38,727 nt of DNA from positions 1 to 38,727 of the forward strand of contig NZ_JAESVB010000026.1 in the NCBI RefSeq assembly GCF_020618775.1, in the 5' to 3' direction. Below are positions 14,091-38,678 of the stretch, piece by piece; position 1 is the stretch's first letter, and each line of letters starts with the position of its first letter. The DNA comes from Acidisoma silvae (GTDB taxonomy: Bacteria > Pseudomonadota > Alphaproteobacteria > Acetobacterales > Acetobacteraceae). Under the pieces are notes generated by a model, which saw only the letters and a program-made list of their open reading frames with translations, was not told where the DNA came from and made no database searches. The translations under genes were made by a program, and so were the position numbers.

Positions 14091-14103
14091 TGAACCAGAC
14101 AGC

Positions 14104-19023: not shown

Positions 19024-19032
19024 CGGCAGGAC

Positions 19033-23041: not shown

Positions 23042-23048
23042 TCCGGTA

Positions 23049-24770: not shown

Positions 24771-24796
24771 TATTAAACTTCCCATTATAGATGCCA

Positions 24797-25339: not shown

Positions 25340-26638
25340 TTAAGGGCGCGCTAATCCGAGATGGTCTCTCAAAGTCCTGCCGCTATATTCCTGACGAAAA
25401 AGACCACGATGCTGCAATTCGGGAACGACCTCATCCACGAACTCCGCAAGTCCGCCTGGATGGAAGGGTGCCAGGATATTAAATCCATCACAGGCATTGT
25501 TGGTAAACCATTCTGCCATGAAGTTCGCGATCGTTCGCGCCGTTCCAACGACGCGAAGATGGCCTCGGTTCTGAACCATCTGCACGGCGAGTGAACGGAT
25601 CGTGGCACCAGGCAGACGGGCCTGATCCAGAATAATTTGGCGCCTGCCCATCTCGCCATTGCTCTCGGGCAGTTCCGGCAGCTGACCGTCGATTGGGTAG
25701 CGTGACAGGTCGTGCTGCACAACGTCGGAAAGATAGGAGACTGCCAAAGATTCAGGCACGAGGTCTTGCAGTGCGCGATCCTTTGACTCTGCCTCTTCCT
25801 GGGTACGGCCGATAATCGGCAAAAGACCTGGCATGACCTTCATGACCCCGGGGATGCGCCCTGCCGCCGTTACGCGGGTCTGCGCAGCGGCATAGAAGGC
25901 TTGCGCTGAAGCAAGCGAGCGTTCGACGCTGAAGACGACATCAGCGACATGGGCTGCGAAGTCCTGCCCATCTGCCGAGACCCCGGCCTGGATTATGACC
26001 GGATGCCCTTGTGGCGGCCGCGGCATATTCAGCGGCCCACGCACAGAGAGATACTTCCCCTTATAATGGATGGCCTGAATAAGTGCGGGGTCGGCGACCT
26101 GTCCGCTCACCTTATCAAAGCTGAGCGCCTTGTCGTCCCAACTGTCCCAAAGTAGCCGAAGGATGTCGATGAATTCGCGAGCGCGTTCGTAGCGTGCGCC
26201 ATGGGCCAGATGATGACTCAGGCCAAAATTTTGCGCCTCCTGATCCGTGCTGGATGTGACGAGGTTGAGCGCAGCGCGGCCATTGCTAAGAAAGTCCAGC
26301 ATGCCAAGCTTGCGGGCAATGTGGTAAGGCTCGTTATAGGTCGTCGAGATGGTGGCCGCAAGGCCAACGCGCTGCGTCACCACGGCCAGAGCCGAAAGCA
26401 AGGTCAGCGGCTCAGGCCTGATCGTTACGGTGTGGCGTAGTACAGCGTCGTAAGTGTCGTTAATGCCAAGCCCGTCAGAATGAAAGACAAGGTCGAATTT
26501 TCCGCGCTCTGCCGTTTCAGCGAGGTTACGGTAGAAGTCGAAGGCCATAAGCCCCTCAGTCGGAACATCCGGCATGCGCCAGCCGGCGGCATGATTTCCA
26601 AGATTGAATAGGAATGCGCCGAGGTGCATTTGCCGCAT
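25340..26638 (-). CDS. NtaA/SnaA/DszA-family FMN-dependent monooxygenase
   Basis: A 432-aa bacterial luciferase-like (LLM) flavin monooxygenase, the normal length for the NtaA/DszA branch. Landmarks are the N-terminal MHLGAFLFNLGNHAAGWR, TTYNEPYHIARKL, GRAALNLVTSS and HPVIIQAGVSADGQDFAA. It uses FMNH2 supplied by a separate reductase, which is not in this window. Relatives cleave C-N, C-S or amide bonds by oxygenation (nitrilotriacetate, EDTA, dibenzothiophene sulfone). It is the last gene of the long minus-strand block, 142 bp after the carbamoylase gene, with a hairpin in the gap. Confidence 0.92.
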   Translation of the reverse strand: MRQMHLGAFLFNLGNHAAGWRMPDVPTEGLMAFDFYRNLAETAERGKFDLVFHSDGLGINDTYDAVLRHTVTIRPEPLTLLSALAVVTQRVGLAATISTTYNEPYHIARKLGMLDFLSNGRAALNLVTSSTDQEAQNFGLSHHLAHGARYERAREFIDILRLLWDSWDDKALSFDKVSGQVADPALIQAIHYKGKYLSVRGPLNMPRPPQGHPVIIQAGVSADGQDFAAHVADVVFSVERSLASAQAFYAAAQTRVTAAGRIPGVMKVMPGLLPIIGRTQEEAESKDRALQDLVPESLAVSYLSDVVQHDLSRYPIDGQLPELPESNGEMGRRQIILDQARLPGATIRSLAVQMVQNRGHLRVVGTARTIANFMAEWFTNNACDGFNILAPFHPGGLAEFVDEVVPELQHRGLFRQEYSGRTLRDHLGLARP

Positions 26639-26722
26639 AGGTCCAACTTTCTAAAACGCGATTTTTCCCGTGGCATTAGTACTGAAAACTTGCATCGCGT
26701 CGGGAATTTGCCCTTCATGAAA

Positions 26723-26765
26723 GAGAACGCCAGGTCCACTCGCATCCTCCAACATGGGCGTTCTC
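26723..26765 (-). terminator. Hairpin between the carbamoylase and monooxygenase genes
   Basis: A perfect 9-bp inverted repeat: GAGAACGCC (26723-26731) and GGCGTTCTC (26757-26765), with a 25-nt loop. It begins 15 nt after the carbamoylase stop and lies about 85 nt before the next start. It may attenuate read-through or stabilise the upstream transcript. Confidence 0.45.
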
Positions 26766-26780
26766 ATGCGAGAAAGGCTG

Positions 26781-27692
26781 TTACGCCTCGGCGATGCGAC
26801 GATACTGGTCCGGGCGGCGATACCGCGCGAAGTCGAAATTGACCCGACGACACGCCGCGATGAGGTCGAGATCGGCGCAATGAACGATCACCTCATCCTG
26901 CAGTGATATGGCAAGGGCGGCCATCTCTCCGCTTGGCGCGATGATGCAGGACCCGCCGATCAATGCCTGCCCGTCTTCGAGACCGGCTTTGGCGGCAGCG
27001 GCTACCCAAAGCGTATTCTGATAGGCGCCAGCCTGCATGGGCAGGTGATTATGAAACATGCGGAGATGCGCGAGCGCCGGTGCCTCATCCAGATACAGCG
27101 GTGTATTGTAGCCGATCAGCACCACCTCGGCACCGTTCAAGCACAGCATGCGATAGGTCTCGGGCCAACGGCGGTCATTGCACAGCGCCAGCCCAACACG
27201 AACGCCATCCAAATCGAAGACGGGAAAACCGAGATCACCGGGCGCGAAATAGCGCCGTTCCAGATGCACGGTCACACCCGGTTCCGGCGCTTCCGACCCC
27301 GGCACATGGATTTTGCGATACAGGCCGCGCAGCGTGCCGCTACGGTCAACAAGCGCCATGCTATTGAAGCGCCTTGCTTCTCCACCATCCCGGATCAGCT
27401 CGGCGAAACCAATGGCGAATCCAATGTTGAGACGGCGCGCCGCATAGAGCAGCGGTGCCGTCTCCACATTCGGAAAGCCGTCCTCATAGAAACTGTCGAG
27501 CAGGGTCTCGTCCGCAATTTCCGACCGTGGAAAGAAGGTCGAAAAAGCCAGTTCGGGGAAGACCGCAAGGGCAGCGCCGCCGGCCGCCGCCCTCTCCAGC
27601 ATAGCGATCAGCCGTCCGACAACCTCGGCACGGCTGGTGCCGGACTGCACCGGGCCCATCTGACAGGCAGCAAGCCCGATGCGACGGGTCAA
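26781..27692 (-). CDS. N-carbamoyl-D-amino acid hydrolase (D-carbamoylase), nitrilase superfamily
   Basis: A 303-aa C-N hydrolase, almost exactly the length of characterised D-carbamoylases (about 304). The catalytic triad is Glu47 (FPELAF), Lys127 (YRKIHVPG) and Cys171 (LALCNDRRWPE). The extended blocks HLERRYFAPGDLGFPV, CNDRRWPETYRM and GYNTP are specific to this subgroup rather than generic nitrilases. It hydrolyses N-carbamoyl-D-amino acids to the D-amino acid, CO2 and ammonia, the last step of the D-hydantoin route. The ATG overlaps the binding-protein gene stop by 4 bp (27689-27692). Confidence 0.93.
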   Translation of the reverse strand: MTRRIGLAACQMGPVQSGTSRAEVVGRLIAMLERAAAGGAALAVFPELAFSTFFPRSEIADETLLDSFYEDGFPNVETAPLLYAARRLNIGFAIGFAELIRDGGEARRFNSMALVDRSGTLRGLYRKIHVPGSEAPEPGVTVHLERRYFAPGDLGFPVFDLDGVRVGLALCNDRRWPETYRMLCLNGAEVVLIGYNTPLYLDEAPALAHLRMFHNHLPMQAGAYQNTLWVAAAAKAGLEDGQALIGGSCIIAPSGEMAALAISLQDEVIVHCADLDLIAACRRVNFDFARYRRPDQYRRIAEA

Positions 27693-29347
27693 GATAGTGA
27701 AACTCCGCCCAGGAACAAGCGGTTTGCGACCGGCGGCAGACCCGCCAAACCTTTCTTGGTCGGCACCAGATAATCGTAAAAATAGGAGAAAATGACGGGC
27801 GTCTCATCCAGAAGCAATTCCTGGATCTGTTTCGCATAGCTGCGCTGGCTGCCGAGATCAGTAGCCTTGCTGTAGCTGTTAACCAGCCCGTCATAGGTCG
27901 GGTTCTTGAAATGCGCCGCGTTCCAAGTACCGCTGCTCAGCAAAGGCGCACGCAAGAATACGTTCGGCACGCCGCGATGGCCGTAATCGGTAATGCCGAG
28001 GGTGGAATCCAGCCAATCCGACTGACCGAACACCGCCTTGCCATAATAGGCATCCTGGCTTTCGATATGCAGCTTTATATCGATGCCGATCTTCTTGGCG
28101 AAGCTTTGCAGCAGAATGGCATAGTCCGGGATTTCGATGTAATCCTCGGTCGTCAGTGTGACGCTCAATCCCTTGCCATAACCGGCAGCCTCCAGAAGCT
28201 GCTTCGCCTTGCGCAGATCCTGCTCGCGCTGCGGCACGCTTGGATCCGCCATCGGAAAGACGGAGGCGAAGGGACTGTCATTGCCCACTTCCGCCATGCC
28301 GGCGAACAGCCCGCGCACGAGTGCGGTGCGGTTAAGCGACAGAGCCAGCGCCTGACGCACGCGCTTATCCACGAAAGGCCCCGTGTCGCAGCGCATATGG
28401 ACCTGCTCATGGCCGGAGCTGCGTTCCCGCACGATGGTAAAGCGCGGGTCATGCAGCAGGGCGCGACCTTCCGCTACCGTCATCTGCGCCAGCAGGTCAA
28501 CCTCGCCGCCTTGCATCGCCAAAATCTGCGGCTGCATATCCGTGTAGAAGGTGAATTCTGTGCGATCCGCCAGTGCCTTAGGACCCCAGTAATCGTCGTT
28601 GCGCACAAAGGATGCACCAACCTTCGGCGTGTATTTCTCAAGCTTGAAAGGCCCTGTACCGTCCCAGTTCTTTTCGAAGTCACCGGCATAGGAAGCAGGC
28701 AGGATCACGCAATTATAGTTATCGGATGATAGAACATAGGGAAAAGTGCCGTAGGGCGCATCGAGATGGAACTCAACCGTCAGTTCATCCACCTTCTTGG
28801 AATTGCCCGGCGACAGAATGCCCTTGAACGCGGACAGCGCGTTGGAAGAATTTTTCGGATCGCACAGCCGGTCAATGCTGGCGATGACGTCATCCGCCTT
28901 CAACGTGCCGCCGCTATGGAATTTCACGCCTGAGCGCAGCTTGAAGGTCCAGACGGAACCGTCGGCATTATGCGACCAGCTTTCCGCCAGAACCGGCTTC
29001 AGCGTGAAATCCCGGTTGAGGATGCAAAGAAATTCGCCGGTCTGGATCAGAATTTCCAACCCGCCATTATCGGCAATAGTCACGGGGTCAATGGCGGCCG
29101 CCGGCACGGTAACGCCGACGCGGATGGTACCGCCAGGGGTGCCAGCATGAGCCTGGCGGATCTCGCCCGGCAGGCCGAACAGGCCGGCAATGCCGCCCAG
29201 CAACGGCAAGGACAGGCCGAGCAGGCTGCCATGCCGCATGAAGGCGCGGCGATCGAGCCGGCCTGCGGCCAGTTCGTCGATCAGATCATTGTCGATAGCG
29301 TCCAGACGGCGGCGGAGAGCATCAAGCGATGTCCTGCTCGGGGGCAT
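27689..29347 (-). CDS. Tat-exported ABC substrate-binding protein, family 5, without adjacent permease genes
   Basis: A 552-aa binding protein of the DppA/OppA type. The ATG at 29347 has GGAAAGAG just upstream and is preferred to 29362. The N-terminus is unusual: about 35 residues with a helical charged stretch precede a twin-arginine motif (DRRAFMRHG) and a hydrophobic run, as in Tat-exported binding proteins of Rhizobiales and Rhodobacterales. Family blocks LAESWSHNADGSVWTFKLR, GVKFHSGGTLKADDV and VDKRVRQALALSLNR are present. No membrane or ATPase subunit is encoded in this block, so it probably docks on a permease made elsewhere, possibly the Dpp system at 10200-14048. It is coupled to the D-carbamoylase gene. 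Confidence 0.92.
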   Translation of the reverse strand: MPPSRTSLDALRRRLDAIDNDLIDELAAGRLDRRAFMRHGSLLGLSLPLLGGIAGLFGLPGEIRQAHAGTPGGTIRVGVTVPAAAIDPVTIADNGGLEILIQTGEFLCILNRDFTLKPVLAESWSHNADGSVWTFKLRSGVKFHSGGTLKADDVIASIDRLCDPKNSSNALSAFKGILSPGNSKKVDELTVEFHLDAPYGTFPYVLSSDNYNCVILPASYAGDFEKNWDGTGPFKLEKYTPKVGASFVRNDDYWGPKALADRTEFTFYTDMQPQILAMQGGEVDLLAQMTVAEGRALLHDPRFTIVRERSSGHEQVHMRCDTGPFVDKRVRQALALSLNRTALVRGLFAGMAEVGNDSPFASVFPMADPSVPQREQDLRKAKQLLEAAGYGKGLSVTLTTEDYIEIPDYAILLQSFAKKIGIDIKLHIESQDAYYGKAVFGQSDWLDSTLGITDYGHRGVPNVFLRAPLLSSGTWNAAHFKNPTYDGLVNSYSKATDLGSQRSYAKQIQELLLDETPVIFSYFYDYLVPTKKGLAGLPPVANRLFLGGVSLS

Positions 29348-29452
29348 GGTGTCTCTTTCCATTGGGCGTGAAGGGAGGATGGGCGCTGAGGCTAGGCGAC
29401 AGGCGCGGCAGGCTGGCAGTCCGGCGGCAGCGGGCTCCAGCCGTCATGAAAC

Positions 29453-30622
29453 CTATGCAAGAAACGGCGCAGTCTCTGGCGGCCGTGCGCGCCAGCCCTG
29501 TATTTCTGCCCAGTCGCTTTCCAGATTGCGAAACCGGGCCAGCGCAAAACTTGACAGGTCAGCGAACTGGCAGCGCCCCTCCGTCACTATTTGCGCAATG
29601 GCATGGCCGGTGGCGGGGGAAAGGCCGAAACCGATACTGGAAAGGGTTGCGATGACAAGATTGCCCGGATCGGCCGGCCGATCGATGACGGGACGTCCGT
29701 CCGGCGTATTCTCAATGACGCCGGCCCAACTGCGAATGATCTTGGCATGAGCGACGCGCGGGAACAGTGTCGCCAGCCGCCCCGCCAGAAAAGGCATCAA
29801 TGGCGTGCTGGAGGGCGTATTGAAAACGGCGTCATCCTCTAGCCATTCATGCGGACCGCCGCCATACGCCAGATTGCCGCGCAGCGTTTGCCGACCGTAG
29901 AGACCGTTGCCGTCCACGCCGCCGATGGGCATCAACGGCAGCGGTTCCGTCACCAGCACCTCAGCGCGCGCCGGCACCATCGGCACAGGCACATCCACCA
30001 TGGCGGCGAGTTTCTGCGTGCCGGGACCGGCCGCGAGCACGACCTGCTGGCAGATGATCTCGCCCCGCTCCGTCACCACCGCCGCGATCCGCCCACCAAC
30101 GCGCCGAAATCCGGTGACTTTGGTTTCCTGCAGAATCTGGCCGCCATGATCCTGCATCGCCCAGGCGAAGGCCTGCACCGTGCGATGCGGATTGGCGTGA
30201 CCGCCGAAATCATAGAAATAGCCGCCACAGACATTCTCGCCCGCCAGCGGCACTAATTCCCGCGCCTCTTTCGCGTCCAGCAGCCGCGCGCCGAAGCCCT
30301 GATGTGCTGCGTTTCGCGCGGCGGCACCGTACAGCTCCAACTGATGTGCGTCGAAGGCGAGACGAATGCGCTTGGGCCGAAATTCAGTGGGATAGCCGAG
30401 CAAATCATCCAACTGCGGCCAAAGCCGCTGTTCCTCCACAAAAAGCGGACTGAAATGATGCGAACAGCCGCCGCCATTGCGGCCCGACGCCCCCCACCCG
30501 ACCAATCCGCTATCGATGACGATGACGGAGATACCGGCACGCGCCAGCCACCAGCCCGTGCTGAGGCCGGTCGCACCCGCACCGATGACAACGACATCCG
30601 CGCCGCGTGGCATCTCCATCAT
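29453..30622 (-). CDS. FAD-dependent amine/amino acid oxidoreductase (DAO family, HcnC/PuuB-like)
   Basis: A 389-aa flavoprotein. The FAD loop VVVIGAGATGLSTGWWLA begins near residue 10, and the C-terminal FAD block GIIENTPDGRPVI-type sequence (VIENTPDGRPVIDRPAD) and LSSIGFGLSPATGHAIA are complete. The ATG at 30622 overlaps the stop of the preceding gene (ATGATG); the frame is open far upstream, but the start here matches the family. Relatives oxidise sarcosine, glycine, gamma-glutamylputrescine, D-amino acids or opines. Coupling to an HcnB-type protein suggests the two form a membrane- or quinone-linked dehydrogenase complex. Confidence 0.9.
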   Translation of the reverse strand: MMEMPRGADVVVIGAGATGLSTGWWLARAGISVIVIDSGLVGWGASGRNGGGCSHHFSPLFVEEQRLWPQLDDLLGYPTEFRPKRIRLAFDAHQLELYGAAARNAAHQGFGARLLDAKEARELVPLAGENVCGGYFYDFGGHANPHRTVQAFAWAMQDHGGQILQETKVTGFRRVGGRIAAVVTERGEIICQQVVLAAGPGTQKLAAMVDVPVPMVPARAEVLVTEPLPLMPIGGVDGNGLYGRQTLRGNLAYGGGPHEWLEDDAVFNTPSSTPLMPFLAGRLATLFPRVAHAKIIRSWAGVIENTPDGRPVIDRPADPGNLVIATLSSIGFGLSPATGHAIAQIVTEGRCQFADLSSFALARFRNLESDWAEIQGWRARPPETAPFLA

Positions 30623-32229
30623 TCGCTGGCGTCCGAACTGTGCCTGGGCCGGCTGGAGGCCGTGTATTCGTCTGCCACGGCCCAGAAGGGCACATATTGC
30701 GCGGGCATGCCAAACCAAGTGTCCCAATGCGCAGCCATGGCTGGCGTCTCTGTAACCGCCTGGGCGGCGAGCGCCACGGGGATCGGCCGCACCGGCGCGC
30801 GGTGAGAGGCCGGGCGCACCGCGCCGTAATCCTGACCGGAGCCGAGGGCCAGCAGTGCCGCCACCTGTTCCCGGCAGCGCCGCCCTTGGCACTGTCCCAT
30901 ACCGGCGCGGGTCAGACGTTTGACTTGATCGGGATGCGGACGATCCCCAAGCAGCCCGCGCAGATCGCGCCGGTTTGGCCGCAGCGCTTCATTGTCGGGC
31001 GTCTCGGCGCCCAGATAGCGGGGCGGTCGCACTTCCAAAATGTCGCGTGCCGTCACTTCCTCGCATTGGCAGACATGGCAGGCATCGCCACTGTCCAGCA
31101 CCGTGGCGCGCACCCAGGCCATTCTTTCTTCGGCCAGATCGCTGGAAGCCAAGTGAGGATCAACGCCACAGCCCGGTTCGGCCATAGCGGCGCGCTGTCC
31201 CTCGGCCTCCGCAATGGTCGTATCTGCCGATTTTTCCGGCCAGATGCCTGCGCAATCTCCGGCGGCGTAGATGCCGGGCCGCGTCGTCATCTGCCGATCA
31301 TCCAGAAATGGCACGATGCCGCCGCGCGCGGCATCAAAACTCATCCGGCATCCGGCGGCATCCAGCAGATCCACCACCGGCACGGAACCCACGCCGAGCA
31401 GCACGCCATCGCAATCCAGTCGAATCTCGGCCCCCTCACCCGCTTGGCCGTCGGGCATCACCGGACGCAGCGTCAGCGCTGACACCGCCGCCTGCCCTTC
31501 GGCGCGCGCGGGCGCATGGCCCAGAAGAACCCGCGTGCCATCGGCTTCGAGTTCCGCCGCGAGTGCCGCAGGTCCGCGCAGAACCGAACCCGGATCGACC
31601 ACCGCCAAAACCATGCAGCCCTTGGTCTGAATGTCGCGTGCCACCCGCAGGGTATCCGCGCTGCTGCCAAGCACGACAACGCGGCGTGGCAGCAAAGCAT
31701 CGTAGAGGCCGGCGAGGCGCTGTGCGGCAGTGATGCCCATAACGCCTTCCTTCTCCCAGCCAGGAAAAGCCAGCCCCATATCGCGCCTTCCGGCCGTAAC
31801 GATGATGCGGCCTGCGCGAACCATCCAGGAGCGCTCACCATCCATCAGCCCGGCGACCGGGCCGTCTAGCCAGCCGATATCCGGTCCAGGCGTGTAGATA
31901 CCCCAGCAGGCGGTGCCGAGCCGCACATCCACGCCGTCCTCCAAAGCGGCCTCAAGCGCCGGCATGCCCAAGGCCACTGCTTCCAGCATGGCATTGCGGT
32001 TGCGCACCGCGCCTGTCATGCCGCCGCCGAAATGCAGCGGCACATTCTCCCCCATCGTCTCGGCGCTGACCGGGTTCTCATCCACCAGCATAACCGAACG
32101 GCCATCGCCTGCGGCCTGCCGCGCCGCCGCCATGCCGGCGGCGCCCGCCCCGATAACAAGCACATCCACCTGTTCGGTCGGCGCCAGTTCCGCACTGGCT
32201 GTGGATCTGGGGTCAGGCTGAAAGGACAT
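30619..32229 (-). CDS. NAD(P)/FAD-dependent oxidoreductase with BFD-like [2Fe-2S] domain (HcnB/OoxA type)
   Basis: A 536-aa flavoprotein. Start at 32229 (MSFQPDPRST); the longer frame to 32418 overlaps the regulator gene deeply and looks non-coding. The FAD loop is VIGAGAAGMAAARQAA (residues 25-40). A second dinucleotide fold follows (VVVLGSSADTLRVARDI). The C-terminal Fe-S domain has Cys384-x2-Cys387-x-Cys389 and Cys447-x4-Cys452 (CHVCQCEEVT ... GMGQCQGRRC), as in the BFD domain of HcnB, SoxA and opine oxidase alpha subunits. A tail of about 70 residues after this domain is unusual in length. HcnA-like small ferredoxin subunit genes, normally part of such complexes, are not seen here. Confidence 0.9.
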   Translation of the reverse strand: MSFQPDPRSTASAELAPTEQVDVLVIGAGAAGMAAARQAAGDGRSVMLVDENPVSAETMGENVPLHFGGGMTGAVRNRNAMLEAVALGMPALEAALEDGVDVRLGTACWGIYTPGPDIGWLDGPVAGLMDGERSWMVRAGRIIVTAGRRDMGLAFPGWEKEGVMGITAAQRLAGLYDALLPRRVVVLGSSADTLRVARDIQTKGCMVLAVVDPGSVLRGPAALAAELEADGTRVLLGHAPARAEGQAAVSALTLRPVMPDGQAGEGAEIRLDCDGVLLGVGSVPVVDLLDAAGCRMSFDAARGGIVPFLDDRQMTTRPGIYAAGDCAGIWPEKSADTTIAEAEGQRAAMAEPGCGVDPHLASSDLAEERMAWVRATVLDSGDACHVCQCEEVTARDILEVRPPRYLGAETPDNEALRPNRRDLRGLLGDRPHPDQVKRLTRAGMGQCQGRRCREQVAALLALGSGQDYGAVRPASHRAPVRPIPVALAAQAVTETPAMAAHWDTWFGMPAQYVPFWAVADEYTASSRPRHSSDASE

Positions 32230-33250
32230 GACGCTCCGTTGCCTTTCGTGCGGTGGTGAATCCGGCGCCGGACAGCACGGCGTGCATCGTGTCCGAACGC
32301 GGCGTGCAGCCGAAACGGCTGCGATAGGCATGGGCGAAATGGCTGGCATTGGCGAAGCCGGTCGCAAGCGCCACTTCCATGACTGACAACTCAGTCTGCC
32401 GCAGCAAAGTACGGGCATGATCCAGCCTCAGCTTCAGCTGGAAGGTATTCGGCGTCTGGCCCAGATGCAGTTGAAACAGCCGTTCCAGCTGGCGCTGGGA
32501 AATGCCGGCAAGTTCGGCGAGGTCTGGCCCACGCGCCGGGCGGTCGAGATTGGCTTCCATATGCGCGATGATGCGCAGGACAGTTGCGTTCCGCACGCCA
32601 AAGCGCATGACGGGCGACATGCGCTGCGGATGTTCACCCTCTCGCACGGCGGTTTGCAAGAACCAGTCACTGACGGCCACTGCCAGCGCGCCGCCATGCT
32701 CACGCGCGATCAGTGCATGCATCATGTCCAGTGGCGCCGCACCGCCCGAGCAGGTCAGGCGGTCACGGTCAATCTCAAACAAACAGCGCTGCACATCGAG
32801 ATCGGGGAACTCCTCCTGAAAGCTCGGCGCCAATTCCCAATGCAGCGTGAAGCGGTAGCCGTGCAGCAGCCCGGCCCGGGCCAGCAGATAGGCGCCGGCG
32901 GACACACCCCCCATGCGCACCCCCTGCCGCGCCAGCACAGCCAGCCGCCGCAAAATGGCAGAGTCACGAAAACCAACGGCTGCAACACCGGCGCAAATGA
33001 TGAGCAGATCAAGCGATGCCGCGCCCTGCCAATCCATATCCGGCGCAAGCGCGATATTATTGGAAGCCTGAACCGGCGCTCCGTCTGGCGTCAGATGATG
33101 CCAGGAATAGAGTTTCTGTCCGGTGATTTCATTAGCCGCGCGCAGCGGCTCTACCGCCGAAGCATAGGGCAGCAGCGCGAAGCCCGGCGTCAGCAGAAAT
33201 CCGACGCGCCGGCCTTGCAGGGGCGCGGCCTGAGGCGCGCGGGGGGTTAT
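32213..33250 (-). CDS. GlxA/GbdR-like AraC regulator with DJ-1/PfpI domain; apparent ATA start
   Basis: About 345 aa. The frame is open up to a stop at 33299-33301 but contains no ATG, GTG or TTG before the internal ATG at 33037, which would remove about 71 residues of conserved domain. The upstream sequence is unmistakably family-like: RRVGFLLTPGFALLPYASAV, then EPLRAANEITGQKLYSW. The only well-placed codon is ATA at 33250, six nt after GGGAGG and overlapping the Rieske stop as ATAA. The N-terminal domain is the inactive glutamine-amidotransferase fold, and the C-terminal double HTH (LAELAGISQRQLERLF, VMEVALATGFANASHFAHAY) is complete. GbdR-type members activate betaine, dimethylglycine or carnitine catabolism, which fits its place between the Rieske and amine-oxidase genes. 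Confidence 0.8.
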   Translation of the reverse strand: MTPRAPQAAPLQGRRVGFLLTPGFALLPYASAVEPLRAANEITGQKLYSWHHLTPDGAPVQASNNIALAPDMDWQGAASLDLLIICAGVAAVGFRDSAILRRLAVLARQGVRMGGVSAGAYLLARAGLLHGYRFTLHWELAPSFQEEFPDLDVQRCLFEIDRDRLTCSGGAAPLDMMHALIAREHGGALAVAVSDWFLQTAVREGEHPQRMSPVMRFGVRNATVLRIIAHMEANLDRPARGPDLAELAGISQRQLERLFQLHLGQTPNTFQLKLRLDHARTLLRQTELSVMEVALATGFANASHFAHAYRSRFGCTPRSDTMHAVLSGAGFTTARKATERHVLSA

Positions 33251-34512
33251 GACCGGCCTCCCGCATGCGTGGGCTGCGAGAGATAGGCTTGGATCTTGTC
33301 ACAATACCAGTCGGTGAATTTCAGCACACCGGCTTCCGCCGACGGGGAATATGGCCCGGGCCTATAGCCTGCCGAGCGCACGCCCGCCTGATTACGTTCG
33401 ACCAGCGCCTTGTCCTGATCATTGGTGACGCGCCAGACATGGGTGAGATTATCGATGGTGTAATCGACACCTTCGATCGCCTCGGCATTGACCAGCCATT
33501 TTGTCGTCACCAGCGTCTCTTCCCGCCCGATCGGCAGCATGCGGACCAGGACGGTATAGTCATTGATGCAATGGTTGAAGGTCGATGGGTAATGCACCCA
33601 GCGCAGCGACCCATAAGCACCGGGCGGCGACAGGCCCAGCGGCTTTGCGACGGCAGGCTTGCCATCCATGGTGATGGATTGCGCATCCTTCGTGAAAGGC
33701 AGGCGCGTCGCGCGGTAATGCGGGCCTTCCGTGATATGGGTGGTGAAGCCCGCCGCTTCCCACTTGTCCCAATATCCCTGGATCATCGCATTCTGTTCAG
33801 GGTTTGCGAAATCGTAGAGATCGAGAAACGTGACCATCAACTCACTATGGCCGCCTGCGCAGTGATAGCATTCGCGGGAATTTTCCACCACCGTCTTCCA
33901 GTTGCCGTATTCGATGAGGTGATCCTCATGCGCCAGCTTGGCATTCTCCAGCCCATGCGGCGCAAGCTGCTCGGTCATCGCTTCGCCATAGGGCGTGAAA
34001 TCCGGTGGATCATCGGCAAGACAGATATAGATGGTGCCGGCCACAGTTCGCAGATTCACGGGCACCAACGCATAATCCTCCGGCCTGAAATTGTCCGGCA
34101 TCAGCTTGGCATGAACGAGCGATCCATCCAGCCGGTAGGTCCAGCGATGGTAGGGACAGACGACGGAGGGGATCTGCCCGCGCTCGGCCTCACACAGTTT
34201 GAAACCACGATGGCGGCAGGAATTATAGAAGGCGCGCAGCCTGCTGTCCCGGTCACGCAGGATCAAAATGGAGCTGCGGCCGATGGAAACCGTGATGAAA
34301 CTACCGCGCTTCGGCAATTCGCAGGTCGCACCGACGAAAATCCATTCCCGGCCGAAAATGACATCAAGGTCGAGCGCATAGATATCAGCGGCGGTGTAGA
34401 AATCCCCGGGCAAGGCATGGCCCGGCTGACGCTTGGCCAGCAGTTCGCGCAGCCGCGCATGATTCGCCATGCCAGGATCGTATGCGCTTACTTTTTCGGC
34501 AATAGACTGCAT
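33247..34512 (-). CDS. Rieske non-heme iron oxygenase, GbcA/stachydrine-demethylase-like
   Basis: A 421-aa alpha-subunit-type oxygenase. Start at 34512 (MQSIAEK); the frame is open to 34593. The Rieske cluster ligands are Cys99-x-His101 (SCRHRG) and Cys119-x2-His122 (CPYHRWTY). The mononuclear iron site has His217 and His222 in RECYHCAGGH, preceded by NWKTVVEN. Spacing and the ENSRECYHC block resemble oxygenases that demethylate or cleave quaternary ammonium compounds (glycine betaine GbcA, proline betaine Stc2) rather than aromatic dioxygenases. The matching flavin/ferredoxin reductase (GbcB type) is not in the window. Its TAA stop overlaps the regulator's ATA start codon. Confidence 0.9.
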   Translation of the reverse strand: MQSIAEKVSAYDPGMANHARLRELLAKRQPGHALPGDFYTAADIYALDLDVIFGREWIFVGATCELPKRGSFITVSIGRSSILILRDRDSRLRAFYNSCRHRGFKLCEAERGQIPSVVCPYHRWTYRLDGSLVHAKLMPDNFRPEDYALVPVNLRTVAGTIYICLADDPPDFTPYGEAMTEQLAPHGLENAKLAHEDHLIEYGNWKTVVENSRECYHCAGGHSELMVTFLDLYDFANPEQNAMIQGYWDKWEAAGFTTHITEGPHYRATRLPFTKDAQSITMDGKPAVAKPLGLSPPGAYGSLRWVHYPSTFNHCINDYTVLVRMLPIGREETLVTTKWLVNAEAIEGVDYTIDNLTHVWRVTNDQDKALVERNQAGVRSAGYRPGPYSPSAEAGVLKFTDWYCDKIQAYLSQPTHAGGRS

Positions 34513-34614
34513 CAGAAGCACACCTTTCCTCTTGGCATACCTTGGCGCACAGAATAGCGGCATGCTGTCGTATATTCGACATTGAACTGCCAAAAAACGA
34601 CAAAAAAGCGCCTG

Positions 34615-35526
34615 CTAGCATGGTGGATGCCGGGCGATCCAGTGGCGGGCGATGGCATCCCGCCCTGTCAACCAGACGCCCTCATGCCGCTGAATGTGAT
34701 CGAGCAGGCGGGCAAGACCGCCAATGCGCCCCGGCCGCCCGATCAGGCGGCTATGCAAGCCTATGGACATCATGCGTGGCCGCCCGTCGCCACCCTCGCG
34801 ATGCAGGTAGTCGAAAGCGTCCCGGCAATAGGCGAAGAAATCGTCACTGCCTGCGAAGTCTCCTCCGCGATTGAGCCGCGCGTCATTATTGTCCAAGGAA
34901 TAGGGCAGGATCAGATGCGGCTTATCCGCCACCTCGGTCCAATAAGGCAAATCGTCGTCATAGGCGTCGCAGTCGTATAGAAAGCCGCCATGCTCCACGA
35001 CCAGCCGACGCGTGTTGGGACTGGGGCGGCCCGTGTACCAACCTATGGGCGCACGACCGACGGCCGCGGTGACCGCCGCGACATTCTGCGCGATATGCGC
35101 ACGCTCCACCGCCTCCGGCACGCCATGATAGTCAATCCAGCGATAGCCGTGGCAAACCACGTCGAAGCCACTGCCGCGGATTTCTGCAGCCGCGCGCGGG
35201 TTACGCTCCAGCGCCATGCCGACGGCATAGATCGTGGCCTGCACACTGCGTTGCCGCAGCAGGCGCATGACATTCCAGAAGCCTGTACGGCTGCCGTAAT
35301 TGAATGCCGACTCAACGTTGAGGTCACGCGCACCCATCAGCGGCGTGCTGACGCCGCTATCTGTCAGCACATATTCCGCATGATCGTCGCCATGCAGAAT
35401 GCTGTATTCGCCCCCCTCCTCCACATTCAGCACGATGGAGACGGCAATGCGCGCATCACCCGGCCAAGCTGGGTTGGGCGGATGGCCGGCATAGCCGATG
35501 AGGTCGCGCGGATAAGTGCCGCTCAT
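34615..35526 (-). CDS. puuE: PuuE-type allantoinase-like hydrolase (polysaccharide-deacetylase fold)
   Basis: A 303-aa cytosolic hydrolase, matching the usual PuuE length. The start at 35526 overlaps the epimerase stop (ATGA). The N-terminus YPRDLIGYAGHPPNPAWPGD, VLNVEEGGEYSILHGD, ESAFNYGSRTGFW, CHGYRWIDYHGV and GWYTGRPSPNTRRLVVEHG are the diagnostic blocks of metal-independent bacterial allantoinase. PuuE opens the hydantoin ring of allantoin to allantoate. Here it lies between an NAD epimerase and a Rieske oxygenase, near an AllC-type amidohydrolase but without uricase or urate-oxidation genes. The real substrate may therefore be allantoin or another hydantoin or cyclic ureide. Confidence 0.88.
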   Translation of the reverse strand: MSGTYPRDLIGYAGHPPNPAWPGDARIAVSIVLNVEEGGEYSILHGDDHAEYVLTDSGVSTPLMGARDLNVESAFNYGSRTGFWNVMRLLRQRSVQATIYAVGMALERNPRAAAEIRGSGFDVVCHGYRWIDYHGVPEAVERAHIAQNVAAVTAAVGRAPIGWYTGRPSPNTRRLVVEHGGFLYDCDAYDDDLPYWTEVADKPHLILPYSLDNNDARLNRGGDFAGSDDFFAYCRDAFDYLHREGGDGRPRMMSIGLHSRLIGRPGRIGGLARLLDHIQRHEGVWLTGRDAIARHWIARHPPC

Positions 35527-36551
35527 GCGTCCATGCCTTCCGCCAGCCAATCGATATAGGCGTGGAATGCCTCCCGCGTCGGGCGCGGACGCCAGCCTGT
35601 CTCCTGAGTGATGCGGGCGATATCATAGGCCCCCCACATGCCGCCCGTGAGGCTCGCATTCTCGATCATCTCGGCCTCGCTCTCCGGCACCGTTTCAGCC
35701 GTAAAGCCAGCCACCTTCTCGGCCGCCCATTCGACCAGCTGGCCGATGGTCGCGGTCTCCCCAGCGGCAACATTATAGACGCCATAGCGCAGGATGTCGG
35801 CTTTGGCGAGAGCATGAATGGCCCGCGCCGCATCCTCAGCATGGATGTAATCGCCGACCGCCTCCAGCGTATTCACCCGCAAAGCTCCACTTCGCGCCAA
35901 TGCCTTATGGGCGATGCGATTGGGTATATGGCGGAAATCGCGGCTGGCCGTGACGCGATCCATCGTGCCGTAAACAGAAGACATGCGGACCGACGCGACG
36001 GACAGACCGAACAATTCGCCATAGCGCTCTGCAATCAGTTCCGAACTCAATTTGGAAATGCCGTAGAGCCGGCGCGGCGCGACGTAGCCATCTTCCGGCA
36101 GCGGCTCGCCGGGCCGATCCGGCCCGTGATGGCGATAGACGGCACCGGAACTGACATAGATGAAGCGCTGAATGCCTGGCTGCGCTCGCGCCCACTCCAG
36201 CAGCGCCACGGTTCCCATGGTATTGACGGCGATGATGCGTGCGGGTTCCGCTGCTTCGGGCTCGCGCCCGATATCGGCCGCCGTGCCGCGCGCCAGCGGC
36301 GTGACCGTCGCGCCATGCACGATATGGGTGATACCGAAACTTTCCAGTTGCGGCGCCCAACTCTCAGGCACAGTGATATCGCCGACAATAACGCGCAAAC
36401 GGTCCGCTACCGGCGCGAAATAGCGCATGGCGGCGGTATCCGGCTTTGCCGCGTCCAGCACCACTACCCTCTCATCGGGCGAGAATTCCGCCCAGGTTCG
36501 CGCCAGTACGCTCATGGCAAAGCCAGTGGCGCCCGTTATCAGAACCGTCAT
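35523..36551 (-). CDS. NAD-dependent epimerase/dehydratase (extended SDR)
   Basis: A 342-aa extended SDR. Start at 36551 (MTVLITGATG) with AAGGA 9 nt upstream; the frame is open to 36665. Tyr163/Lys167 in YGISK and Ser135-136 in YVSSGA are the catalytic residues. The cofactor loop reads GATGFAM (residues 7-13), so the third Gly of GxxGxxG is Met. Members of this broad group act on nucleotide sugars but also on small hydroxy compounds in catabolic operons (denD-like). It is 19 bp after the amidohydrolase gene and overlaps the PuuE-like gene. Confidence 0.9.
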   Translation of the reverse strand: MTVLITGATGFAMSVLARTWAEFSPDERVVVLDAAKPDTAAMRYFAPVADRLRVIVGDITVPESWAPQLESFGITHIVHGATVTPLARGTAADIGREPEAAEPARIIAVNTMGTVALLEWARAQPGIQRFIYVSSGAVYRHHGPDRPGEPLPEDGYVAPRRLYGISKLSSELIAERYGELFGLSVASVRMSSVYGTMDRVTASRDFRHIPNRIAHKALARSGALRVNTLEAVGDYIHAEDAARAIHALAKADILRYGVYNVAAGETATIGQLVEWAAEKVAGFTAETVPESEAEMIENASLTGGMWGAYDIARITQETGWRPRPTREAFHAYIDWLAEGMDA

Positions 36552-36570
36552 ACGTCTACGTCCTTCGGAT

Positions 36571-37839
36571 TCAAGATGGAAAATCCAGCAGCAGCCGGAC
36601 AAGCAAGTCTTCCGCCACCGCGAAATCCGCCATGGCCATGGCTTCATCGGGATTGTGGCTGCCATTGCGGTTGCGGATAAAGATCATGGCGCTTCGAATG
36701 CCAACTTTGGCGAAAATCGCGGCGTCATGCCCGGCGCCGCTCGCCATCTCGAACGGTTGGCCACTCAAGGACAGCAAACGCTGCCGCAAGCCTGCATCCA
36801 TCATCGCGGGCGGCGAATAACTGCCGACACCTAGATCGAAGGTTACGCGATATTCCGTCGCGATATGCGCGGCCGCCCGGCGGAATTCCGCCGCCACGTC
36901 CTGCATAACGGTATCCGACGTACTGCGGATATCGAGCACGAATTGCACATCACCCGCGACACGGCTGGCACCATGCATGGCGGGATCGGTGAAGAATTCT
37001 CCGCTGGTCATCACGAGATCGTCACCGCGTGCTTCGGCCTTATCCCAATGGAGCTGCATGTGATGCAGCAGGGCAACGGTCGCCGCCACAGCATCTGACC
37101 GGTAGCGGCGCGGTACGGCGCCGGAATGCGCATAGACGCCGTGGCAGCGTGCGGCGCGAAAGCGTAGGCAGCCGCGTATACCGCTGACGACTGCGATGGG
37201 CAGCGCTTCCTCAACCAGAACCGGCCCTTGCTCAATGTGCACTTCCAGATAGGCAGCGATACTGGCCGGCTCGAGTAGGGAGCGCTGCATTGCCAAAGTA
37301 TCACGATCGAAACCGGCTGCGCGGAGGCTATCCGCCAGCATGACGCCATTATCCGAACGCCGCACCTCAAGCACCGCCGGGTCAAGTAAGCCGAAAGCCC
37401 CGGCGCTGCCGAGATAGGGAATATCGAACCACACGGATTCTTCGGCGCGAATGGCCATCACGGTAATATCGCAGGACGGCACAAAACCCATGTTCCGCAG
37501 TCGTGCGAGCGCCGCAAGACCTGCTGCGACACCTGCCGCACCGTCGAAATTGCCCCCCTGCGGCACGCTGTCGAGATGGGAACCGATAATGATGCCGGGC
37601 GCCGATCTGTCCCGCCCCGGAAGAGTCATCATCAGATTGCCGATCGGATCCACCCGGCAGGCAAGACCCAGTTCCAAGGCCGCCGCGTGCATGATGTCAT
37701 GCGCTGCCTGCTCGCCCGGGCCGTAGCTGGCCCGCACGATGCCGCGCCCTTCCCGCGTCGCGCGATCCAGGGCATCGAACAGACTTGCGGCGAATGCGGT
37801 ATTTGGCAACAAAGCGTCGATAATTGTATAATTCCTCAA
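36571..37839 (-). CDS. Zn-dependent amidohydrolase, AllC/HyuC/L-carbamoylase-like (M20)
   Basis: A 422-aa M20-type hydrolase. The zinc-site blocks are SHLDSV (His88, Asp90), NFDGAAGV (Asp99), AEES (Glu133-134) and EVHIEQGP. GAGHDA near residue 385 is typical of allantoate amidohydrolases, ureidoglycolate hydrolases and N-carbamoyl-L-amino acid hydrolases. The start shown is a TTG at 37839; other TTG codons at 37812 and 37809 are possible and there is no clear Shine-Dalgarno. It is the first gene of the minus-strand block and would hydrolyse the linear ureide released by the PuuE-like enzyme. Confidence 0.9.
   Translation of the reverse strand: MRNYTIIDALLPNTAFAASLFDALDRATREGRGIVRASYGPGEQAAHDIMHAAALELGLACRVDPIGNLMMTLPGRDRSAPGIIIGSHLDSVPQGGNFDGAAGVAAGLAALARLRNMGFVPSCDITVMAIRAEESVWFDIPYLGSAGAFGLLDPAVLEVRRSDNGVMLADSLRAAGFDRDTLAMQRSLLEPASIAAYLEVHIEQGPVLVEEALPIAVVSGIRGCLRFRAARCHGVYAHSGAVPRRYRSDAVAATVALLHHMQLHWDKAEARGDDLVMTSGEFFTDPAMHGASRVAGDVQFVLDIRSTSDTVMQDVAAEFRRAAAHIATEYRVTFDLGVGSYSPPAMMDAGLRQRLLSLSGQPFEMASGAGHDAAIFAKVGIRSAMIFIRNRNGSHNPDEAMAMADFAVAEDLLVRLLLDFPS
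37803..37832 (+). promoter_or_regulatory. Candidate promoter for the 37902 SDR gene
   Basis: On the plus strand TTGGCA (37803-37808) and a perfect TATAAT (37827-37832) are 18 nt apart. Transcription would begin about 60 nt before the ATG at 37902. The site overlaps the first codons of the divergent amidohydrolase gene. This would be unusual if the TTG at 37839 is its true start, and slightly favours a later start for that gene. Confidence 0.4.
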
Positions 37840-37901
37840 GACTGGTGTGATTACTCTATTTTGGTCTGATCTATATTTTAGCCAAACAGGAAAAACTTGC
37901 G

Positions 37902-38678
37902 ATGTCCAGCCTATTGGCCGGTAAGATAACGGCGATTACAGGCGCCAGTTCCGGGATTGGCCGCGCCATGGCGCTGGCCTTCGCCGCCGAGGGCGCCATC
38001 GTGGCGCTGGCCGATATCACCACACGACCGAAGGAAGGCGGCGCACCGACGCTCGACCTGATTCAGGAGATGGGTGCCACGGGCGATTATGCTCAGATCA
38101 ATGTCGCCGCCTGGGATGATGTCGACCGCTGGATCGGCCATATCGTGGCGCGCTTCGGCCGCCTTGATGTCATGGTCAATAATGCCGCGACCTTTTCCGG
38201 CACCGCGCTGACTGAGACCTCCAGCGCGCAATGGGAAGACGTCATGGGCGTGAACATGACGGGCATGTTCAACGGCTGCAAACGCGCCGTGCAGCAGATG
38301 CTGACACAAGAGCCGCGCCATGAAGCGCGCGGCCGGATCATCAATCTCGGATCACAACAGGGGATCGTCAATTCACCGCATGACACGGCCTATGGCGTCA
38401 GCAAGGCTGGAGCGATCTACATCACGCGGCAGGTCGCCGTTGACTACGCGAAAGACCTCATCATCTGTAACAGCATTTCGCCCGGCAAGGTCGTGACCGG
38501 CAAGCCCGGTTTGCCGATGGACCCTGCATTGATGGAAAATGCCCAGCGGCGAACTCCGTGGCCACGTCTGGGAAAACCTGAAGATATCGCGAATGCTGCC
38601 GTGTTCCTGGCCAGCGACCGCGCCACTTTCATGACGGGGTCCAATCTCGTGGTCGATGGTGGATGGCTGGCGGCCTAG
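37902..38678 (+). CDS. SDR-family oxidoreductase
   Basis: A 258-aa short-chain dehydrogenase. TGASSGIG is at residues 13-20, NNAA at 93-96, Ser151 and Tyr164/Lys168 in YGVSK, and the C-terminal FMTGSNLVVDGGW is complete. The ATG at 37902 has CAGGA upstream, about 13 nt away (AAACAGGAAAAACTTGCG). It is divergent from the long minus-strand block across about 60 bp of AT-rich spacer and may be co-regulated with it. The substrate is unknown. Confidence 0.92.
   Translation: MSSLLAGKITAITGASSGIGRAMALAFAAEGAIVALADITTRPKEGGAPTLDLIQEMGATGDYAQINVAAWDDVDRWIGHIVARFGRLDVMVNNAATFSGTALTETSSAQWEDVMGVNMTGMFNGCKRAVQQMLTQEPRHEARGRIINLGSQQGIVNSPHDTAYGVSKAGAIYITRQVAVDYAKDLIICNSISPGKVVTGKPGLPMDPALMENAQRRTPWPRLGKPEDIANAAVFLASDRATFMTGSNLVVDGGWLAA

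Follow-up and report, generated by a model that had tools for sequence, protein, structure and literature searches.

A conserved Acidisoma locus that joins ureide-hydrolase-type genes to N-demethylation-type genes

The window analyzed here, i.e., the whole 38,727-nucleotide stretch of the Acidisoma silvae contig NZ_JAESVB010000026.1, carries ten genes as long open reading frames on the minus strand between positions 25340 and 37839 (Table 1). The genes placed on this strand by the preliminary description were all present, and their families were backed by profile scans; its list lacked the extended SDR gene (Epim), which belongs to the block and is included in the ten. The contig of the window ends on the SDR side of the block. 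Hereafter, the AllC-like, Epim and PuuE genes are designated module U, and the genes of the Rieske oxygenase, the GbdR-like regulator and the HcnB- and HcnC-like subunits are designated module Q.

Table 1. Genes of the Acidisoma silvae locus, with positions in the window
Feature	Position	Strand	Basis or remark
SDRd, divergent SDR dehydrogenase	37902..38678	+	beside block in relatives
AllC/HyuC-like hydantoinase/carbamoylase-family amidase, module U	36571..37839	-	TIGR01879 above cut-off
Epim, extended SDR (NAD-dependent epimerase/dehydratase family), module U	35523..36551	-	PF01370
PuuE-type allantoinase homologue, module U	34615..35550	-	TIGR03212 405 bits; 3cl6/1z7a; start possibly 35526
Rieske oxygenase, group-V (quaternary ammonium) type, module Q	33247..34593	-	start probably ATG 34512 or later
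GbdR/GlxA-like AraC regulator, module Q	32213..33247	-	NF052371 match; homologous upstream region
HcnB-like FAD oxidoreductase subunit, module Q	30619..32229	-	PF07992; TIGR01372 family
HcnC-like FAD amine dehydrogenase subunit (DAO family), module Q	29453..30619	-	PF01266 229 bits; alignment
SBP2, solute-binding protein family 5	27689..29362	-	PF00496; Tat-like signal
N-carbamoyl-D-amino-acid hydrolase homologue, accessory	26781..27692	-	CN-hydrolase; solved relatives
NtaA/DmoA-family FMN monooxygenase, accessory	25340..26638	-	TIGR03860 above cut-off

The eight genes from the AllC-like amidase to the solute-binding protein, together with the divergent SDR gene, are kept in Acidisoma cellulosilyticum and Acidisoma sp. 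L85 with 60-89% protein identity, and because of this conservation the block is more than a chance assembly. Its flanks on the side of the binding protein are different in all three genomes, and those on the SDR side differ between A. cellulosilyticum and L85, in both of which SDRd adjoins the block (78-81% identity). The adjacency of genes for amide or ureide hydrolysis to those for Rieske N-demethylation and amine oxidation, pointed out in the preliminary description, is real and conserved in Acidisoma. To our knowledge, these three functions together match no standard gene set, and no published description of the combination was found in the open-licence literature.

Judging by its sequence, the PuuE of module U is a close homologue of allantoinase: its residues 9-309 align with residues 1-302 of the solved PuuE allantoinase 3cl6 (E 5.5e-109, 367 bits), and it scores 405.1 bits (404.8 in a second scan) with TIGR03212, below the cut-off of 424.6, which is exceeded by its L85 orthologue (437.5 bits). 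In the tree, the PuuE of the block forms its own clade beside uraD-linked PuuE, and in four of the five Acidisoma genomes no other PuuE scores above 160 bits. The AllC-like amidase, with 3n5f and 1z2l as solved relatives, lies above the cut-off of TIGR01879 (250.3 vs. 204 bits) and below that of the AllC model TIGR03176 (178 vs. 597.75 bits). Epim was found in three of 150 genomes of the family, all of them Acidisoma. Within the class sample, a PuuE neighbour was present in one of the eight fetched neighbourhoods of Epim homologues and absent from that of the closest one (G204, 57%), and this scarcity suggests that U is a loose grouping in genera other than Acidisoma, Rhizobium and Paracoccus.

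The best named model for the Rieske protein is GbcA (NF058607, 447.7 bits vs. a cut-off of 670). Aligned to 3vca, 4qup and 6y8j, the protein displays the features given for group V Rieske oxygenases in PMC7948474 and PMC10952381, namely the CxH...CxxH motif of the [2Fe-2S] cluster, the bridging Glu and the C-Y-H-C site with a second His, the ECYHCxxxH site being kept. At the position of CntA Tyr203, where group Vb (GbcA/Stc2) has Asn, the enzyme of the window possesses Ser, as do those of the other four Acidisoma genomes. The equivalent residue is Asn in all 25 OpuC-linked Rieske sequences compared and Ala or Gly in eight of the nine PLP- or dipeptide-transporter-linked ones. The clade of the enzyme from the window appeared beside the latter in a weak grouping (92/86, not starred) and separately from the OpuC-linked and hpbD-neighbour sequences. 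Other genera (e.g., G034 and G064) possess Ser-type Rieske genes as well, and since such genes stand beside dipeptide transporters in G064, G058 and G134, there is no one-to-one match between the pocket residue and the kind of transporter.

The regulator matched the GbdR model NF052371 from position 33037 downwards with 249.4 bits (cut-off 480), the scanned reading frame lacking about 70 N-terminal residues; its coding sequence reaches approximately 33250, where there is no ATG, GTG or TTG start. The best NCBIfam matches of the FAD pair were the sarcosine oxidase alpha and beta families, far below their cut-offs; HcnB and HcnC models were absent from the matches at E 1e-5. In A. cellulosilyticum and G532, the regulator, HcnB and HcnC genes meet at junctions of -17 and -4 nt, too tight for an HcnA gene in between, and the 4-nt overlap of the latter two recurs in G053. 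Of the hallmarks of HcnABC, matches to the HcnB/HcnC models are lacking at this E value and an HcnA gene is lacking between these genes, and of the "HcnB/HcnC-type dehydrogenase pair" named earlier the FAD pair is present under a rather loose name. An HcnB gene lies directly upstream of the HcnC gene in 79 of 80 HcnC-centred loci; a Rieske gene is present in 35 of the 80, and PuuE, AllC or Epim genes in two, both from Acidisoma.

SBP2 (SBP_bac_5) has a twin-arginine-like N-terminus, as judged by eye, and no permease genes beside it, while its paralogue (68% identity) at G000:C7 has its own DppBCDF. As SBP2 accompanies module U in G532, and its relatives accompany Rieske and HcnBC genes in other genera, its module membership is ambiguous. 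Among solved structures, the CN-hydrolase is most closely related to N-carbamoyl-D-amino-acid hydrolases (E 4e-98); it aligns with 6lei over residues 1-301 of both proteins (331 bits) and keeps the FPELA, YRKIH and CNDRRW segments with the conserved Glu, Lys and Cys, presumably the catalytic ones of N-carbamoyl-D-amino-acid hydrolase; full-length match and conserved segments together predict such an enzyme. Its gene is present in two of the three linked blocks (81% in A. cellulosilyticum, missing from L85). The NtaA-like gene (TIGR03860, 504.1 bits vs. a cut-off of 279.7) is present in one of the three, and its homologue (72%), along with SBP2, lies near module U in G532. These two genes, central to the scheme proposed earlier, are variable accessories.

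Both modules were present in all five Acidisoma genomes examined, being adjacent in three of them and unlinked in two: in G053 they occupy separate contigs, and in G532 a single contig carries both at a distance of about 1.86 Mb. In L85 an opposite-strand gene is inserted between them, with 1143 nt from PuuE to Rieske. Each module is closely packed, with junctions of -4 to 32 nt within U and -17 to 23 nt within Q (A. cellulosilyticum and G532), and a wider gap separates U from Q: 192 nt between PuuE and Rieske in A. cellulosilyticum and about 102 nt in the window with the ATG 34512 start (21 nt with TTG 34593). The spacing from HcnC to the binding protein is 90-291 nt. SDRd accompanies U in G532 and Q in G053. 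The trees of the two modules agree for the Acidisoma genomes, and the U-Q adjacency looks ancestral in the genus. The occurrence of both modules in all five genomes, the agreeing trees and the apparent ancestral adjacency would also be expected of one functional unit. Outside Acidisoma, Q occurs widely without U, the modules being separate there.

We regard the locus as a nitrogen-scavenging one composed of two separable modules, N-demethylating Q and ureide-hydrolyzing U, with a probability of about 0.55. From the gene content, linkage pattern, spacing, trees and site motifs observed, we infer all substrates and reaction steps as follows. Module Q would remove N-methyl groups: the Rieske enzyme may oxidize a methyl group on a quaternary ammonium compound that bears a carboxylate, probably bulkier and betaine-like rather than glycine betaine itself, its GbcB-like reductase being encoded elsewhere (perhaps at G000:C5), and the HcnB-HcnC FAD pair would then dehydrogenate the N-methyl amine so formed, be it tertiary or secondary. 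Module U, with SDRd, would open an allantoin- or hydantoin-type ring and then remove the carbamoyl group, its SDRs presumably oxidizing a downstream hydroxy intermediate. SBP2 could serve as an extra scoop, probably using the DppBCDF permease whose genes lie at G000:C7. U and Q would act on different or only loosely connected substrates, being kept together in three of the five species.

The alternative which survives best, and which we find doubtful, is the single pathway of the preliminary description, where one N-methylated or quaternary-amine hydantoin or ureide would be imported via SBP2, opened by PuuE, hydrolyzed by L- and D-carbamoylases and demethylated by the Rieske and HcnBC enzymes. 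While the co-inheritance of U and Q in Acidisoma and their apparently ancestral adjacency would suit it, the modules are unlinked in two of the five genomes and interrupted by the opposite-strand gene in a third, and neither D-carbamoylase nor NtaA is constant. It is favored by the maintenance of the block between differing flanks, the unusual pocket Ser, the linkage of SDRd now to U and now to Q, and a GbdR-like regulator (42%) beside a hydantoinase operon of Rhizobium WYJ-E13; yet U and Q were side by side in no locus examined outside the genus. Of the earlier claim, the association of the genes is supported and the one pathway is not; the refuting condition set there, that the genes fail to co-occur elsewhere, applies by half, since they occur together in all five Acidisoma genomes. 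A form of the claim in which one undescribed pathway serves a quaternary-ammonium compound with a ureide or hydantoin moiety, in an arrangement inherited from the ancestor of Acidisoma and broken up later in a single lineage, seems unlikely; the atypical Ser-type group-V Rieske enzyme and the HcnBC-like pair would there demethylate the amine, and PuuE and the AllC-like enzyme would dismantle the ring.

It is also improbable that the locus is wholly ordinary, with Q as a second betaine operon (for glycine betaine or a common betaine), U as an allantoin operon, and their adjacency due to chance or shared nitrogen control. The PuuE scores around the allantoinase cut-off agree with such an explanation, as do UraD, found in four of four Acidisoma genomes tested, and the lack of AllB-type matches above the cut-off in the five genomes (four to seven below it in each, the best with 269 vs. 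357.85 bits). A. cellulosilyticum, however, possesses another PuuE, whose gene adjoins one of the ureidoglycolate-lyase family, and the block PuuE may therefore not be an ordinary allantoinase. The Rieske enzyme belongs to the GbcA/Stc2 family, but falls far below the GbcA cut-off, bears Ser instead of Asn and branches apart from the OpuC-linked and hpbD-neighbour genes, and the AllC-like enzyme is far under the AllC cut-off. Finally, a role for HcnB-HcnC as a dehydrogenase of the amino-acid or opine type, acting on the amino acid released by the U carbamoylases while the Rieske enzyme alone handles an unrelated betaine, is highly unlikely, for the pair overlaps the regulator gene following Rieske, and methyl-amine genes (Rieske, GbcB-like, sarcosine-oxidase or MttB-like) are present in 59 of the 80 HcnC-centred loci. 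However, the HcnBC sequence family is broad, and the remaining 21 loci, with none of these genes seen and a further DAO-family oxidase in 12, indicate that the pair may have other substrates.

If the two-module reading is right, the widespread HcnB-HcnC-like pair can be assigned a role, open to testing, in N-demethylation after a Rieske enzyme, and the quaternary-ammonium oxygenases gain a Rieske subclade with an altered substrate-pocket residue. Acidisoma, with three linked and two unlinked genomes, offers a genus-level test case for one pathway versus two.

Among known systems, GbcAB/Stc2 demethylation shares with module Q a GbdR-like regulator and a Rieske enzyme of the quaternary-ammonium group, in which the E-C-Y-H-C-x3-H site is found. 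The Acidisoma block differs from it in Ser at the clade Vb Asn position, in lacking the adjacent GbcB-like reductase gene that accompanies many Rieske relatives, in a family-5 binding protein instead of OpuC, and apparently in a second step performed by the HcnBC-like FAD pair; other bacteria use DgcAB, perhaps at this same step. The glycine dehydrogenase HcnABC has a two-subunit FAD amine dehydrogenase architecture, which the Acidisoma pair shares with it and with heteromeric SoxAB, but the pair has no room for HcnA and lies far below the SoxA/SoxB family cut-offs. A Rieske gene beside HcnB-HcnC and a GlxA-family regulator recur in the cluster on plasmid 1 of Paracoccus denitrificans PD1222 (Rieske-GbcB-like-MmgE-HcnBC-OpuC), which differs in its betaine-type OpuC transporter, MmgE/PrpD, CN hydrolase and Asn-type Rieske, and module U is absent from the part of it that was seen. 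With allantoin catabolism (PuuE, AllC) module U shares the near-full-length match to a solved allantoinase and an amidase of the AllC superfamily, whereas its amidase scores below the AllC equivalog, urate genes are absent, two SDR enzymes are present and PuuE forms its own clade. Similar in composition to U and SDRd are operons on pRL12 of Rhizobium and pAMI1 of Paracoccus aminophilus: Epim homologues (58-59% identity) adjoin a PuuE-like gene in these genera, SDRd homologues (55-57%) occur in three such operons, and a dipeptide-type ABC transporter is shared. The pRL12 and pAMI1 operons, however, carry dihydropyrimidinase, beside Epim and the PuuE-like gene, AllB-like and ThDP enzymes; the loci inspected in Rhizobium and Paracoccus contained no Rieske gene and, in the stretch seen, no HcnBC, and their PuuE-like protein is only 37-39% identical to the Acidisoma PuuE.

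The genes placed at 25340-37839 by a preliminary description are all present on the minus strand (Table), together with one that it had not listed, the extended SDR termed here Epim. To our knowledge, the block matches no standard gene set, and no relevant paper on its combination of genes or on related ideas was found in the part of the literature available. The block had been proposed to encode one pathway for an N-methylated or quaternary-amine ureide or hydantoin. The gene set proved real and conserved; the single pathway was weakened, as linkage of the genes is inconstant. The block is best read as two modules with a probably ancestral linkage, rather than as one demonstrated pathway: module U, comprising the AllC-like amidase, Epim and PuuE, and module Q, comprising the Rieske oxygenase, the GbdR-like regulator and the HcnB-like and HcnC-like subunits (the FAD pair). 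The main value of the locus lies in a Ser-type Rieske subclade and in the partnership of Rieske and HcnBC proteins.

Table. Genes of the block and the divergent neighbouring gene
Feature	Coordinates	Strand	Basis
AllC/HyuC-like amidase	37839-36571	minus	ORF and family scan
Extended SDR (Epim)	36551-35523	minus	ORF and family scan
PuuE	35550-34615	minus	ORF and family scan
Rieske oxygenase	34593-33247	minus	ORF and family scan
GbdR/GlxA-like regulator	about 33250-32213	minus	ORF and family scan
HcnB-like FAD subunit	32229-30619	minus	ORF and family scan
HcnC-like FAD subunit	30619-29453	minus	ORF and family scan
Family-5 binding protein (SBP2)	29362-27689	minus	ORF and family scan
N-carbamoyl-D-amino-acid hydrolase homologue	27692-26781	minus	ORF and family scan
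NtaA/DmoA monooxygenase	26638-25340	minus	ORF and family scan
Short-chain dehydrogenase (SDRd)	37902-38678	divergent from block	ORF and family scan

Gene counts were taken from a codon-based caller, since long antisense ORFs had misled earlier calls. The window comprises all of contig 26 of its genome (G000), which runs for another 49 bases beyond SDRd. The widest gaps of the block lie at the U/Q and Q/SBP borders, as indicated by the distances in A. cellulosilyticum and by an intervening gene in Acidisoma sp. L85. In A. cellulosilyticum, AllC-Epim and Epim-PuuE are spaced by 22 and 15 nt, and Rieske-regulator, regulator-HcnB and HcnB-HcnC by 23, -17 and -4 nt, with 192 nt between PuuE and Rieske and 125 nt between HcnC and the SBP gene. 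In L85, an opposite-strand gene of 300 residues, named by eye as D-2-hydroxyacid-dehydrogenase-like, separates PuuE from Rieske; distances inside its module Q (35-92 nt) are upper bounds, since start sites were poorly called. The PuuE-Rieske gap of the window is 21 or about 102 nt, depending on the start chosen. The N-terminal coding sequence of the GbdR-like frame is conserved in the window (33037-33250, minus strand) and L85 (L039), where reading by eye found no ATG, GTG or TTG start and an in-frame ATA overlapping the Rieske stop in both; the gene has an ATG start in A. cellulosilyticum and in the fifth Acidisoma genome, G532 (also by eye). Across 25000-38000, neither promoter nor terminator matches clearly outnumbered those in shuffled sequence (7 vs a mean of 5.1, and 8 vs 11.0, respectively).

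Epim and a Q-type HcnC occur in all five Acidisoma genomes, with AllC, PuuE, Rieske and HcnB seen alongside; the Q regulator is missing from module Q of isolate G5_19. The modules are adjacent in three genomes, namely the window's, A. cellulosilyticum (L065/L192) and L85 (L039/L067), and unlinked in G5_19 and G532. In G5_19, U is found on contig 132 next to LysR and LarA-like genes, and Q on contig 9 with SDRd nearby; its HcnC is a called gene of 386 residues, the TGA within the match being located at the gene's own end. On contig 1 of G532, U lies at 1.53 Mb, accompanied by SDRd and by homologues of SBP2 (77%) and NtaA (72%), and Q at 3.39 Mb with an SMP-30-like gene. A fixed ten-gene pathway was rejected or weakened, as linkage varies across Acidisoma and so does the presence of two of the ten genes. 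The joined Rieske-HcnB-HcnC tree paired the window with A. cellulosilyticum (100/100) and G5_19 with G532 (93/93), its base being unresolved; the PuuE tree gave the same pairs (100/98 and 88/91) and put L85 next to the latter (81/86). Given this agreement, U-Q adjacency would most simply be ancestral, with one split in the G5_19/G532 lineage, although these two genomes now differ in arrangement. By itself, adjacency inside the genus is weak evidence, as the UraD gene neighbourhood is likewise syntenic in three of the four Acidisoma genomes examined.

For a wider comparison, the HcnC alignment was scanned against named genomes by two peptide patterns, the best 80 of 299 relatives being kept. 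PuuE, Epim and AllC accompany HcnC in only two of these best 80 loci, both from Acidisoma. Such absences are weak, since only the best 80 of 299 were covered, flanks were at most 10 kb and some contigs were short. The labels GbcB, MttB, MmgE, OpuC, DAO1 and MSOX were given to clusters by eye, some being supported by record annotation or Pfam, and MttB by neither. Among the best 80 of 299, HcnB directly precedes HcnC in 79 loci, a Rieske gene lies within the flanks of 35, a sarcosine-oxidase-like (Sox) subunit is nearby in 26 and an MttB-like gene in 6; at least one of Rieske, GbcB-like, Sox or MttB-like genes was found in 59.

The HcnC-like subunit belongs to the DAO family, its nearest solved chains being 'sarcosine oxidase' 1y56_B and sarcosine oxidase beta subunits, and its nearest NCBIfam families SoxB and ThiO; the HcnB-like subunit is closest to the middle part of SoxA. 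As the neighbours across genera are often methyl-amine catabolism genes, the FAD pair is assigned, on sequence and context, to a putative next demethylation step after the Rieske oxygenase. The pair is apparently not limited to such catabolism, since 21 of the best 80 (of 299) loci lack methyl-amine genes, 11 of them in Pseudomonas and 12 with another DAO oxidase. The HcnABC cyanide-synthase reading was rejected or weakened, there being no match to the HcnB or HcnC models and no space left between the block's genes for HcnA.

Several other HcnBC arrangements were observed. Twelve loci (L112, L119, L123, L126-L130, L132, L133, L140 and L142; 11 from Pseudomonas and one from Paraburkholderia) usually show the order LysR, DAO-family oxidase, HcnB-HcnC and amino-acid-type binding protein; they lack Rieske and Sox genes and possibly serve an opine-like substrate. 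A recurrent cluster of Rieske, GbcB-like, MmgE/PrpD, HcnB-HcnC, CN hydrolase, OpuC-type transporter and GlxA regulator genes, in varying subsets, is represented by L197 and 27 OpuC-type loci among L065-L144 in Paracoccus, Bosea, Caballeronia, Ancylobacter and others. All five Acidisoma genomes carry a second HcnC (58-61%). On another contig of the window's genome (G000:C5, about 230994-238360; L055), a second operon contains Rieske, GbcB-like reductase, Cys/Met-type PLP enzyme, HcnB-like, HcnC-like and another DAO oxidase genes; our guess is that it would remove all N-methyl groups from an N-trimethyl amino acid, e.g., the betaine-lipid (DGTS) head group, before a gamma-elimination step.

The nearest solved relatives of the Rieske protein are 3n0q, 4qup and 3vca (Stc2), at about 400 bits, with CntA far lower at 119 bits; the Rieske ligands and the site E-C-Y-H-C-x3-H are retained in the alignment. 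According to PMC7948474, CntA position 203 is Tyr or Phe in group Va, and Asn in the group Vb demethylases GbcA, BmoA and Stc2. This position is occupied by Ser in all five Acidisoma genomes, the window's included, and by Asn in 25/25 OpuC-linked rows and two others (L068 and L121). Nine rows have a PLP gamma-lyase-like gene or a dipeptide transporter as linked context; eight of these carry Ala or Gly and one carries Ser (L108, on the contig of G058). The match between pocket residue and transporter context is imperfect, because two further dipeptide-transporter-linked rows have Ser (G064 and G134) and two rows without OpuC have Asn (G027 and G084). In the Rieske tree of 47 rows, which omits four duplicate loci (L039, L041, L045 and L047) and covers neither G532 nor the Rieske genes of G034, G064, G134, G049 and others, the four Acidisoma rows group together (100/100), adjoining the PLP/dipeptide-transporter group (92/86, not starred) and separate from both the OpuC group and a plasmid group, one member of which is a Rieske gene next to hpbD. 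Simple glycine-betaine catabolism is rejected or weakened by the Rieske score, pocket residue and place in the tree; we infer that the enzyme would act on another, perhaps bulkier, substrate. Outside Acidisoma, Ser-type Rieske proteins were found in G034 (57% identical), G064 (56%), and G058 and G134 (45-46%). A PuuE-family gene is present in G034 (554 bits) and G064 (342 bits), on a contig other than that of the Rieske gene; none above 116 bits was detected in G058 and G134.

No permease gene stands beside SBP2. The window's own DppBCDF set (10200-14048) is disfavoured as its partner, since its subunits are 30-48% identical to the sets beside SBP2-like proteins (L044 and L045), compared with 60-66% identity to the L044 set, which adjoins SBP2-like, Rieske and HcnBC genes, for a DppBCDF set on G000:C7 accompanied by an SBP 68% identical to SBP2. 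SBP2 probably shares this latter permease. The stretch 10200-24803 encodes a second amide/peptide set (names from Pfam for four genes, the remainder by eye): DppBCDF, SBP, S58 peptidase, a distant PuuE-like paralogue (94.7 bits), AstE-like, M20 peptidase, SDRs, ketopantoate-reductase-like, creatininase-family and AraC-regulator proteins. A sugar-type set at 1137-8730 (by eye) includes an RbsA/B/C-like ABC transporter, xylulokinase-like kinase, SIS protein, DeoR-like regulator and SDR.

The PuuE of module U matches the solved PuuE allantoinase along almost its entire sequence and scores 405, below the cut-off of 424.6 (437.5 for the L85 orthologue); the amidase is a member of the hydantoinase/carbamoylase family scoring outside the AllC equivalog. 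Acidisoma PuuE proteins form their own starred clade beside urate-linked PuuE, in a tree whose uraD-linked group has three rows rather than four, none having been recovered from L219. The block PuuE is the sole copy above 160 bits in the window's genome, L85, G5_19 and G532; A. cellulosilyticum has a second one (405.5 bits, 47% identical to the window's) adjoining a ureidoglycolate-lyase-family gene. UraD was found in 4/4 Acidisoma genomes tested, and a weak ureidoglycolate-lyase-family match in the window's genome (39.5 bits) and G5_19, with none in L85 and G532. No AllB-type match in the five genomes exceeded the cut-off; the four to seven matches per genome below it make another allantoinase possible. 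Judging from this survey, U may serve most Acidisoma genomes as their ordinary allantoin module.

Epim (E 1e-60) was detected in 3/150 family-sample genomes, all Acidisoma, and in 6/385 class-sample genomes, the window's among them. The 150 family genomes are presumed identical to those in which the Rieske relatives were sought. The other five class-sample genomes yielded eight Epim neighbourhoods, one of which (G234) has PuuE (54%) beside Epim (41%); the closest Epim (G204, 57%) has no PuuE neighbour. Plasmid Epim (57-59%) occurs in 16 records, 14 from Rhizobium, of which three neighbourhoods were examined. Plasmid loci L194, L195 and L196 (Rhizobium/Paracoccus) carry an operon of dipeptide-type transporter, MFS, dihydropyrimidinase, SDR, Epim, PuuE-like, ThDP enzyme, AllB-like and SDRd genes. 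In Bosea F3-2 and Rhizobium WYJ-E13, PuuE (51-52%) lies near Epim-like (31-33%) and SDRd-like (50-51%) genes, with an annotated ureidoglycolate lyase also at the Bosea locus. These contexts in Rhizobium, Paracoccus and Bosea support a putative cyclic-ureide role for module U. In the operons of Rhizobium johnstonii pRL12 and Paracoccus aminophilus pAMI1, the partners of Epim are a dipeptide-type ABC transporter, a dihydropyrimidinase (678 bits in pRL12, above the cut-off), a ThDP enzyme and an AllB-like protein (301 bits in pRL12, below the cut-off of 357.85), along with a PuuE-like protein (37-39%) and an SDRd homologue (55-56%).
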